Positions 34,959-37,830 of a DNA stretch of 64,000 bases are shown here, piece after piece (position 1 is the stretch's first letter; each line of letters opens with the position of its first letter). The notes under the pieces are model-generated. The model saw only the letters and a list, made by a program, of their open reading frames with translations. It was not told where the DNA came from and made no database searches. Origin of the DNA: Prochlorococcus sp. AG-347-J22 (GTDB lineage: Bacteria > Cyanobacteriota > Cyanobacteriia > PCC-6307 > Cyanobiaceae). Both the position numbers and the translations under genes were made by a program. Location: positions 1 through 64,000 of the forward strand of contig QCBY01000002.1 of the NCBI GenBank assembly GCA_003279005.1. Reading direction: 5' to 3'.

Positions 34959-35924
34959 ATGAGTTCTAATTTTAAAAATTTATACACATCAAACAATCCT
35001 CCATTAGAGGCGATCTTAATGAGAGGTTCCAAACTTGAATCAATACACAAAGTACATGCAGTAATTAGTGATAAAAAAGGTAGAGTTTTAATGTGCGCTG
35101 GCAATCCCGAATATAAAAGCTTTATAAGATCAGCATTAAAACCATTTCAGGCAATACCGTTTGTAAGTAGTGGAGCTTCATCAAAATTCAAAAATCCATC
35201 AAGGTCAATAGCCTTATCCTGTGGATCTCATAGTGGGTCCATATTACATACTAGAGAAGCTTTCAAAATATTATGGGAATACGATATAGATATCAATAAT
35301 CTTAAATGTCCTTTGAAAATAACAAGCCCTTTAGAACATAATTGTTCAGGTAAGCATTCAGCATTTCTTGCAACATGTAAAAAATTAAATTGGCCTTTAG
35401 AAAGTTATTTAAAAGGAGATCATCCACTTCAGAAAGAAATATTTAGAATAATTTCCGAACTTCTTGAAATTCCTTTAAAGCACATATACGCAGAGAGAGA
35501 TGACTGTGGGGCACCAACTCTTTATATGAAGTTAATAGAAATGGCAAAATTATATTCACTATTAAGTAGTTCGGACAATGCTGAGTTAGAGCAAATAAGT
35601 AGAGCTATGACGACCGATCCAGCAATGATTAGCGACTACAATAGATTTGATACCGAAGTAATACAGTCCTCACATGGGCAAGTTATTAGTAAAGGAGGAG
35701 CAGAAGGAATACAATGTCTTTGTAAGGTAAATGAAGGAATGGGTTTAGCCTTAAAAGTTGAGGACGGTTCAAAAAGAGCAAAACAAGCTGTAGGTTTACA
35801 TTTATTAAAACAACTAGAATGGATTTCAGATTTAAGGATACAAGACATTAAGGAAAAGATCTTAAAATTGTCTGAAGGCGTTCAAATAGAAGTAAAAGGT
35901 CAATTAAAATTCCAGGAATCATAA
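34959..35924 (+). CDS. L-asparaginase II family protein
   Basis: The start is set at ATG 34959 (MSSNFKNLY) because the track start overlaps CGLD27; this gives 321 residues. The pattern MRGSKLESIHKVHAVISD, IRSALKPFQAIPFVSSGA, LSCGSHSG, HNCSGKHSAFLATCK, DDCGAPTLYM and SKGGAEGIQCL is that of the asparaginase II (PF06089-type) family, distinct from the E. coli AnsA/AnsB fold. It probably hydrolyses asparagine to aspartate and ammonia, which fits nitrogen scavenging in an oligotroph. It is the last gene of the DUF3318-rsfS-CGLD27 cluster, directly before the tRNA. Confidence 0.85.
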   Translation: MSSNFKNLYTSNNPPLEAILMRGSKLESIHKVHAVISDKKGRVLMCAGNPEYKSFIRSALKPFQAIPFVSSGASSKFKNPSRSIALSCGSHSGSILHTREAFKILWEYDIDINNLKCPLKITSPLEHNCSGKHSAFLATCKKLNWPLESYLKGDHPLQKEIFRIISELLEIPLKHIYAERDDCGAPTLYMKLIEMAKLYSLLSSSDNAELEQISRAMTTDPAMISDYNRFDTEVIQSSHGQVISKGGAEGIQCLCKVNEGMGLALKVEDGSKRAKQAVGLHLLKQLEWISDLRIQDIKEKILKLSEGVQIEVKGQLKFQES

Positions 35925-35968
35925 AAAAAGAAAAAAAGATCCCTTTCAGATGTATGCTATGTATATGT

Positions 35969-36045
<77 letters not shown>

Positions 36046-36537
36046 ATAAGCGGATATGTATGCCAATCTATATAATGGCTATTCTTCCAAGAGATCTTTT
36101 ATCTCATAATCTTTAGATAAAAAATTTTAAGCCATTTAAAACATTTATAAAATATTAAAATTAAAGCTCAATTTCAAGAGATAATATTTTATAAATATTT
36201 CAATTAAATATGTAATGAGGCTTTGCTTGCCACTTTAATATTCCTTTGCTAAAAAGATAGAGCGGACTAAAGTCCAATACTCCACGAGGATTTAGTCCGC
36301 TCTTGATTCGTTTACCTGATTAATTTATTTTTTAAAAGTTCATAAACAATTGATTTAAACTGAAATTTATAATGTAATTAATATCTGCTGGCTCTGATTC
36401 AAGGTTAATCTTTTTTAGAAGTTATTAATAGAGATAGGCAATCAAAAGGTTTAAACAAGATAAAATTTTTTATAAAGGGTTTTTGATTTTGTATCAATTG
36501 TACGGTTTAGAATTGAACCATTTGTTATCAATAAATT
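36046..36537. other. Intergenic region after the tRNA, no gene seen except a hairpin
   Basis: About 490 bp separate the tRNA from the next small ORF. I found no reading frame longer than about 25 codons with credible coding character on either strand. The region is AT-rich apart from one strong inverted repeat at 36259-36303 (listed separately). It could hold a small RNA gene on either strand. I see no attachment-site repeat of the tRNA 3' end. Confidence 0.5.
36259..36303 (-). terminator. 13-bp perfect inverted repeat, possible reverse-strand terminator or small RNA end
   Basis: AGAGCGGACTAAA at 36259-36271 is exactly complementary to TTTAGTCCGCTCT at 36291-36303, with a 19-nt loop. Read on the reverse strand, the stem is followed by ATCTTTTTAG, a T-rich tail, whereas the forward-strand tail is TCTTGATTCG. 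This favours a Rho-independent terminator for a reverse-strand transcript, either a read-through from the 111-aa gene or an unannotated small RNA in 36304-36537. The 5' arm also contains an alternative palindrome, GGACTAAAGTCC, so the RNA could switch folds. Confidence 0.5.
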
Positions 36538-36742: not shown

Positions 36743-37078
36743 TTATTTAATTTTAGTTTTTTTAGTTAAATTTGTAAGCTGAAAATAACCATTCTTGTTT
36801 AAGGAATATTTATCGAACCAAAGGTTTAATAAATTATCGAGACCTATTCCTACTAAATATTTTTTATTTAAAATTTTATAGTCTGATAAAGCAAGTAATA
36901 AATAGGGAAAGATCATATCTAAAAGACCAGGAGGCAGATTTTTCAAAGGGACACAGTGACCCTTTGCCCATATAATCTGCATATCTTGAGAAAATAAAGA
37001 ACTCCAATAATTAAAATCACAATATAATTTTTCTGGAGGTAGGAGATTAAGCTTTAATACCTGCGTTGAAGAATTCAT
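36743..37078 (-). CDS. Hypothetical protein, candidate member of the RHH regulon
   Basis: This 111-residue protein has a mixed composition with several Trp, Pro and Leu (LLPPEKLYCDFNYWSSLF, LKNLPPGLLDMIFPYLLLAL). One stretch (about 53-66) is hydrophobic but rich in Pro before it, so a globular protein is more likely than a membrane protein. I recognise no family. Its upstream region on the reverse strand holds the second copy of the AGTGCAACACT site (37208-37218), about 130 bp before its ATG, so it may be controlled by the neighbouring RHH protein. That control is inference. Confidence 0.5.
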   Translation of the reverse strand: MNSSTQVLKLNLLPPEKLYCDFNYWSSLFSQDMQIIWAKGHCVPLKNLPPGLLDMIFPYLLLALSDYKILNKKYLVGIGLDNLLNLWFDKYSLNKNGYFQLTNLTKKTKIK

Positions 37079-37201
37079 AGTAGAAGGTCATAAAAAATTA
37101 ATTTCCAAATTATTAATTACATTTTTATTATCTGCAAAAAAAATATTAAAAATGTATTCTTAGTAATCAAAGAAATATTATTAAATTAGTAACACAAAGT
37201 A

Positions 37202-37221
37202 TTGCACAGTGCAACACTTAT
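37202..37221. promoter_or_regulatory. Second copy of the RHH-associated operator-like repeat
   Basis: The sequence TTGCACAGTGCAACACTTAT contains AGTGCAACACT (37208-37218), identical in reverse complement to the site in the divergent promoter at 37634-37644, and the shared match extends to 13 bp (GTGCAACACTTAT). It also contains an overlapping odd palindrome TTGCAC-A-GTGCAA. It lies directly after the RHH stop codon and upstream of the 111-aa gene on the reverse strand. An operator role is inference from the repeat pattern. Confidence 0.5.
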
Positions 37222-37222
37222 C

Positions 37223-37606
37223 TTAGGAATTCCTCTTTTTCATTCTTTCCTGGAATTGAAGGAAGATTAAAAATTTTGAGTAAATTTCATTATCAAAAGG
37301 TTCTTCTTTTACTTCCTTTAAATTGAGATTTTCGTCATTTAATAATTTTTTTTTAAAATTATAATTAAATTCTTTATTAATAATTTTTTTTGTTTCAAGG
37401 CTTTCATTATTTAAATTATTTTCTCCATAATTGTTTAGTGATTTGTCTTTACCTAAATCGAAAAGTCCTCTTTTATACAAGGCCTCCTCAACTAAAATAT
37501 TAATTACTTTCGCATTACTCAGATTGTTTTCAAAGCTTATTTTATTAATTAAATCTAATACGTCTCTTCTAGGTATAAAACCTACTCTCCTTTTTTTTGT
37601 AGGCAT
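37223..37606 (-). CDS. Ribbon-helix-helix-type regulator
   Basis: The start is set at ATG 37606 (MPTKKRRVGFIPRRDVLDLI), giving 127 residues. The N-terminal 50 residues fit a ribbon-helix-helix DNA-binding fold: a basic strand KRRVGFIP, then two helices RRDVLDLINKISFENNL and NAKVINILVEEAL. The rest is Asn/Lys/Glu-rich, probably disordered or coiled, and ends in FLQFQERMKKRNS. The gene is divergent from a 52-aa membrane peptide, and a palindromic site lies between the -35 and -10 elements of the shared promoter region. Such an arrangement is typical of autoregulated RHH repressors. An antitoxin role was considered but no toxin-like partner is evident. Confidence 0.6.
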   Translation of the reverse strand: MPTKKRRVGFIPRRDVLDLINKISFENNLSNAKVINILVEEALYKRGLFDLGKDKSLNNYGENNLNNESLETKKIINKEFNYNFKKKLLNDENLNLKEVKEEPFDNEIYSKFLIFLQFQERMKKRNS

Positions 37607-37621
37607 AAAATAGTTCTGCAC

Positions 37622-37649
37622 TTGACTATAATAAGTGTTGCACTATATT
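37622..37649 (+). promoter_or_regulatory. Divergent promoter with embedded operator-like palindrome
   Basis: On the plus strand TTGACT (37622-37627), a 16-bp spacer and TATATT (37644-37649) form a good promoter for the 52-aa gene at 37672. The spacer holds AGTGTTGCACT (37634-37644), a 4+3+4 near-palindrome. On the reverse strand the same site lies just upstream of TATTAT-like sequences that could serve as the -10 for the RHH gene. A half-site variant, AAGTGCAG, lies on the reverse strand nearby (about 37616-37623). Repressor binding here would block both promoters; this is inference from the layout. Confidence 0.55.
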
Positions 37650-37671
37650 AAAAGCAAGTCAACGTTTTTTT

Positions 37672-37830
37672 ATGATTATTCCAATTACCATTTTGTTCGG
37701 AGCATTAGGATATCTTTATTACAAATCAAAGGACGAAGTACCTTTGATTGAATTTGAACAATCAGATATCACTAACGAAAAACTAAAAGAAGACGATTTA
37801 TACAAAGATTTGGAAGACCTTTTTATTTAA
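37672..37830 (+). CDS. 52-aa membrane-anchored peptide, partner of the RHH gene
   Basis: This ORF, below the track cutoff, encodes one short N-terminal membrane segment (MIIPITILFGALGYLYY) followed by a charged cytoplasmic-type tail rich in Asp, Glu and Lys and ending LEDLFI. It has a strong promoter (TTGACT, 16 bp, TATATT) with the RHH-type site inside it. The layout, regulator divergent from a small single-helix protein, is reminiscent of stress or toxin-like membrane peptides, but I see no family match and claim no toxicity. Confidence 0.55.
   Translation: MIIPITILFGALGYLYYKSKDEVPLIEFEQSDITNEKLKEDDLYKDLEDLFI

Follow-up and report, generated by a model that had tools for sequence, protein, structure and literature searches.

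A conserved module with putative operators joining a predicted RHH regulator and a membrane micro-peptide in Prochlorococcus

We found that a small predicted regulator of the RHH type, RHH-A, and a divergently encoded 52-aa membrane peptide are joined by a strictly conserved palindromic operator in a 64,000-nucleotide stretch of Prochlorococcus DNA (hereafter the window). RHH-A is probably (roughly 0.78) an Arc/CopG-like autorepressor of its own gene and of the divergent peptide, and a downstream gene of 111 aa is probably a further target in this copy of the module, judging from the placement of the sites. The module is real and strictly conserved, and the proposed mechanism is of a known kind; it is apparently undescribed, as our literature search turned up no paper about such RHH proteins in Prochlorococcus or about the MED4 tags that we guessed to belong to the locus, and the main text of papers on MED4 RNA does not mention it. 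No photosynthetic organism is more abundant than Prochlorococcus, and each near-complete genome of the genus usually has three paralogous, unnamed predicted regulators of this group, two of them with a dedicated membrane micro-peptide. Regulatory proteins have been described as very scarce in Prochlorococcus (PMC2518516). Because the operator is fixed and precise, a short oligonucleotide and a single purified protein would be enough to test the regulator, its site and the small regulon directly.

The window comes from a draft genome of 1.41 Mb that is ~86% complete, and its closest protein relatives in named genomes were nearly all from Prochlorococcus. We determined how well sites and genes are conserved, where they lie and which occur together, and found an RHH-like topology in the regulator and purifying selection on all three genes; the features of the locus are listed in Table 1. 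Since relatives conserve MPTKK, the start of RHH-A was set at the ATG at 37606 (−) and not at the GTG at 37621 upstream of it; this gives a protein of 127 aa. The peptide promoter described in the first-pass annotation, with a palindrome in its spacer, is present in the sequence in all its parts. The RHH promoter has a poor −10 box, with two competing candidates for it. A second copy of the palindrome had been reported after the RHH stop codon, and this copy is exact, but the shared block measures 14 bp (ATAAGTGTTGCACT) and not 13 bp. Additional to that description are the second promoter site O1, a larger inverted repeat around the 3′ copy, and the 111-aa gene, whose candidate promoter overlaps this repeat. 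An Rfam search of the locus found a tRNA as the only structural RNA, and a 72-aa ORF at 35848–36066 (−) of the window overlaps tRNA-Met (GGEDLNFRPSGYEPDELPDCSTP), a typical false ORF from the antisense strand of a tRNA.

Table 1 Features of the RHH-A module, in window coordinates
Feature	Position	Strand	Description
RHH-A regulator gene	37223..37606	-	127 aa; begins MPTKKRRVGFIPRRDVLDLINKISFENNLSNAKVINILVEEALYKRG
Divergent peptide ORF	37672..37830	+	52 aa; N-terminal hydrophobic segment, acidic C-terminal tail DDLYKDLEDLFI
Operator O2 AGTGTTGCACT (putative)	37634..37644	.	4+3+4 palindrome; fills most of the peptide-promoter spacer
Operator O1 AGTTCTGCACT (putative)	37612..37622	.	22 bp from O2, near the RHH start codon
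Peptide promoter, -35-like hexamer TTGACT	37622..37627	+	Seen in the sequence; conserved in A; paralog B has TTGCAC in this position
Peptide promoter, -10-like hexamer TATATT	37644..37649	+	16-bp spacer after TTGACT; ACTATATT nearly invariant across A and B
RHH promoter, -35-like hexamer TTGACT (predicted)	37657..37662	-	Near-invariant on this strand in both A and B
RHH promoter, -10 candidates	37634-37639 or 37642-37647	-	AACACT (37634-37639; 17-bp spacer) or TATAGT (37642-37647); both overlap O2
3′ operator array AAGTATTGCACAGTGCAACACTT (putative)	37197..37219	.	Larger inverted repeat; 4 bp past the RHH stop
Second exact AGTGTTGCACT copy	37208-37218	-	Within the 3′ array, 4 bp beyond the RHH stop codon
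Candidate promoter of the 111-aa gene	37186..37214	-	TTGCAC (37214-37209, in the 3′ operator), 17-bp spacer, TACTAA (37191-37186)
111-aa downstream gene	36743..37078	-	Conserved; likely third target

The exact 11-mer AGTGTTGCACT occurred only twice in the whole 1.41-Mb draft, both times at the A module, and its presence there is therefore not a matter of chance. It was found in 55 of 61 same-genus genomes, including all 21 that were at least 90% complete, with ~100 matches compared to 6 for the reversed control. All 30 loci fetched with the bare 11-mer carried RHH-A or its paralog RHH-B, and, conversely, the operator was present at 24/24 RHH-A and 7/7 RHH-B loci found by protein; orthologs of RHH-A occurred in each of the 24 same-genus genomes searched and among 483 relatives. 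Among 77 distinct RHH-A genes gathered from named genomes by protein similarity alone, O2 was exact in 76, at 37–49 bp upstream, while the 77th carried the variant AGTGCTTCACT, with an altered centre and both palindrome arms kept. The peptide was intact in 71 of the 77 modules, a count that includes two (L152, L177) missed by the script pattern and intact by eye. The first-pass annotation had tied its proposal to conservation of the sites with the gene pair, and this is what we observed. O2 was invariant in 39 A and 17 B modules. Hardly any variation was seen in the adjoining ACTATATT or in a TTGACT on each strand. Synonymous sites in RHH differed by ~42–47% (RHH-A mean 0.42) while the operator columns did not vary, and RHH-A had an omega of 0.41; in these comparisons, the operator is conserved more strictly than the RHH protein.

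Autoregulation through a short palindrome, as had been proposed at first pass, is strongly supported by these comparisons: a search with either the operator or the RHH protein leads to the other, and the same layout recurs in paralog B. RHH-A dimers would sit on O2, which lies between the two hexamers of the peptide promoter and also covers the likely −10 region of the opposing promoter, that of RHH, and a second dimer would occupy O1, 22 bp or two helical turns away, probably cooperatively. Bound RHH-A would block polymerase at both promoters and so keep regulator and peptide low at the same time, until some signal removed or inactivated RHH and released the two jointly. We infer from sequence that these sites are bound by the RHH protein and that the three genes belong to a single response; repression rather than activation we infer from the operator's position within both promoters. 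If the palindromes were instead bound by another, global regulator, with RHH merely one of its targets, this would suit a genus whose few regulators may each act on many genes (PMC2518516). We consider this unlikely: exact sites occur almost exclusively at RHH loci, unlike a global regulon, and both paralog C and a relative in another genus (L059) have related palindromes before their own RHH genes, which is simplest under autoregulation. Perfect AGTGNNNCACT palindromes outside the modules were no commoner than the reversed control and thus gave no sign of a wider regulon. Genome G095 had 12 of them, 5 in modules, vs. 8 controls (we take G095, G152 and G270 to be MIT9301, MED4 and MIT9515, respectively).

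O1 scored above background in 76/76 modules having O2, and its counterpart in paralog B, at the same 22-bp spacing, was often the perfect palindrome AGTGTCACACT or else a close variant. Past the RHH stop codon, a degenerate array resembling repeats of ~10 bp followed in 74 of the 77 A modules fetched by RHH protein; scored with a weight matrix built from promoter sites only, the 3′ array lay above the 99th percentile of the background in 97% of the 39 A and 94% of the 17 B modules. The 111-aa gene was syntenic after the array in 77/77 A modules. A module of two genes had been proposed, which is too narrow: the 3′ site and the 111-aa gene have to be considered as well, and not every lineage has kept the peptide. 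The 111-aa gene was the most constrained of the three (omega 0.08); its protein had no Pfam or NCBIfam match, and its AlphaFold model (pLDDT 48) was unusable for fold. A regulated promoter for this gene is likely in copy A, because TTGCAC lies in the 3′ operator and is followed by a 17-bp spacer and TACTAA, and because the geometry recurs with TACTAT in L013 (MED4-like) and TATATT in L012; it was weaker in the other sub-clade. Through the 3′ array of copy A, the −35 region of the 111-aa gene would then also come under RHH-A.

Paralog B has no 111-aa gene downstream, and there its 3′ site is perfect although a convergent tRNA-Met starts ~10–20 bp later (L078, L084); it is also intact in several unrelated downstream contexts. 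These observations speak for a 3′ site without a target gene of its own, which would serve looping with the promoter sites or buffer the RHH concentration. This view concerns the 3′ site only and is compatible with autorepression, and we hold it as a tentative, less favored possibility. Against it, the site is partly decayed in L044 (MIT9515-like, with a tRNA-Met neighbor), the distance from promoter to 3′ site in B varies over a full helical turn (411–421 bp) and thus shows no strict phasing, and in A, where the spacing signal is dominated by one sub-clade, the 3′ site coincides with a plausible −35 of the syntenic gene. In B the site may act in looping or in titration, or may be a leftover.

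Assignment of the regulator to the RHH fold is supported by structure prediction. The model of RHH-A had helices at residues 14–27 and 31–45, with pLDDT > 90 there, after strand-like residues 5–12; the N-terminal strand itself cannot form in a monomer model. Of the top 14 Foldseek matches, almost every one was Arc or CopG (highest probability 0.97, E of at least 0.15). The best family match was to RHH_5, at E = 0.079 and in 4 of 25 members, with no match for the window protein itself and none passing the cut-off, and a search of the PDB found no credible sequence relative. The earlier assignment has support from the predicted topology and the Arc/CopG fold matches, with family matches below cut-off. 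Foldseek E values above 0.1, the lack of a family above cut-off and the poor −10 box of RHH count against the autorepressor reading, as do RHH relatives in genus g56, where we found the protein but no such operator site. Two residues that were invariant in paralogs A, B and C, R7 and G9, fall at the predicted DNA-reading strand, the register of which was taken from Arc and CopG. A separate conserved C-terminal helix follows a disordered linker in RHH-A.

Arc and CopG are small strand-helix-helix repressors with short promoter-overlapping operators and paired sites. The module is like Arc of phage P22 and CopG in predicted fold and in both of these operator traits. Unlike them, it is chromosomal and genus-wide, its 127-aa protein carries a C-terminal helix after a linker, its operator has another sequence with sites 22 bp apart, and it adds an array past the stop codon and a divergent membrane peptide. 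Omega of pSM19035 and other RHH proteins act on tandem repeats (PMC4803016), and arrays of short repeats are also what the A 3′ array resembles, but the Omega heptads (NATCACN) differ in sequence and spacing and the module has no epsilon-zeta toxin pair. TrcR (All0854) of Anabaena PCC 7120 is an RHH autorepressor whose site overlaps its own −10 and whose operator is conserved with the gene, and it is reported absent from Prochlorococcus (PMC10272220). It differs in its operator (ATACTACACTTGTATTAC), in its many translation targets and in having no detectable sequence relation to RHH-A, B or C, such that its −10-overlapping autoregulation is a functional parallel only. Identity with TrcR was rejected: when the proteins encoded downstream of its operator in other cyanobacteria were compared with the RHH-A/B/C profile, the hhalign probability was 0.2%, and the TrcR operator TACTACACTTGTATTA had no match in G000 or the same-genus G017. 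Classical divergent regulator–target pairs have, as here, one intergenic operator common to regulator and target; unlike them, the module has an uncharacterized micro-peptide as target, operators at both ends of the regulator gene, and a duplication of the whole module in a streamlined genome.

A profile of both peptides, searched against 201 genomes, found exactly two loci per near-complete same-genus genome, which were the A and B modules, and no credible match elsewhere across 59 genera. The peptide was found only beside RHH-A and RHH-B. The peptide is under purifying selection (omega 0.25 in A, and 0.17) and is thus a real gene. In 6 of the 77 A modules (L149, L190, L196, L200, L202, L222) it was broken, with RHH and operators intact; going by these sequences, the peptide is dispensable. 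It cannot then be the sole reason that the operators persist; part of the reason must lie in RHH autoregulation and in the 111-aa gene.

That the peptide is small, hydrophobic and lost in some lineages while RHH stays, and that RHH domains are common in antitoxins (PMC4803016), might suggest an RHH antitoxin and a toxic peptide, in a toxin-antitoxin or membrane-depolarizing system. We find this very unlikely, and the type II form was rejected: the genes are divergent and not co-transcribed in one operon, no toxin family was matched in Pfam, NCBIfam or PADLOC, regulator and operators persist genus-wide at fixed chromosomal loci, and the RHH genes of paralog C and L059 have no peptide. A stress or defense role, raised at first pass, was likewise not borne out, with no PADLOC match, no relatives in phages or viral contigs, and the same neighbors across the genus. 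The exact copies bracketing the RHH gene, and the position of B near tRNA-Met in several genomes, could also be read as ends of a mobile cassette or as recombination sites. This is hardly credible, because the promoter site is conserved base by base and in place, A keeps the same downstream gene in 77/77 modules, and the module has neither an integrase nor phage or viral relatives; we rejected a phage or mobile origin, since neither 50,697 phage records nor IMG/VR contained a relative of RHH.

The three RHH paralogs usually held by near-complete same-genus genomes each formed one well-supported clade (97/98 for B). Paralog B repeats the module, with its own RHH, the same O2, a second site at 22 bp, a 3′ site and a divergent membrane peptide of 50 aa, which has the N-terminal hydrophobic design of the A peptide and a different tail. 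It was not found in the window's own draft genome, likely owing to a gap, since A lies 37 kb from the contig end. Paralog C has AGTGTTACAAT in its upstream region, arranged as TTGACA-GA-AGTGTTACAAT-ATTGACA, and no divergent membrane peptide; its sequence (L127:5921-6295 (-); G000:C2:109937-110299 (+)) was more conserved than that of A or B. The L059 relative carries AGTGCTACACT 34 bp ahead of its RHH start, also without a divergent peptide, which suggests that operator and regulator predate the partnership with the peptide. In three g56 relatives (L056, L057, L058), a conserved block 3′ of RHH (GATGCAGAGATCAACAAAAATGACGCATAAAACAATC), not obviously coding, replaces the operator array.

Paralogs A and B probably cross-regulate, as expected from the identical O2 in both and the predicted DNA-reading residues common to A, B and C. 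A more speculative extension, which we think improbable, makes the peptide an input as well: its conserved tail, different in A and B, would bind the paralog-specific C-terminal helix of its own RHH and hold it at the membrane, and the shared DNA-reading strand and operator would couple A and B into a membrane-linked double switch. Lineages without the peptide would then keep a constitutively repressed remnant.

The downstream context of the B module varied by sub-clade (L081, L044, L084, L078), with tRNA-Met adjacent, tRNA-Met after ~250–300 bp, or a thioredoxin-like gene, which points to rearrangement right at the 3′ edge of the module. In L046, L048, L053 and other B loci, a strongly conserved stretch (CTAAATCCTCGTGGAGATATGAACCTTAGCCCG) lies ~150–200 bp past the RHH-B stop, before the thioredoxin-like gene, and could be a micro-peptide (SGLNPRGDMNLSP-like) or a small RNA; a peptide related to the former (SGLNPRGEMDFSPL) occurs near the A module in L121. 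L121 (10225-10837; G152) also has genes for high-light-inducible-type proteins and other small genes between the A module and tRNA-Met, an insert that the window genome does not have, its tRNA-Met being ~1.2 kb from the RHH gene. A Glutamine-II riboswitch lies near the B module of G152 (L124:8331-8390 (+)).
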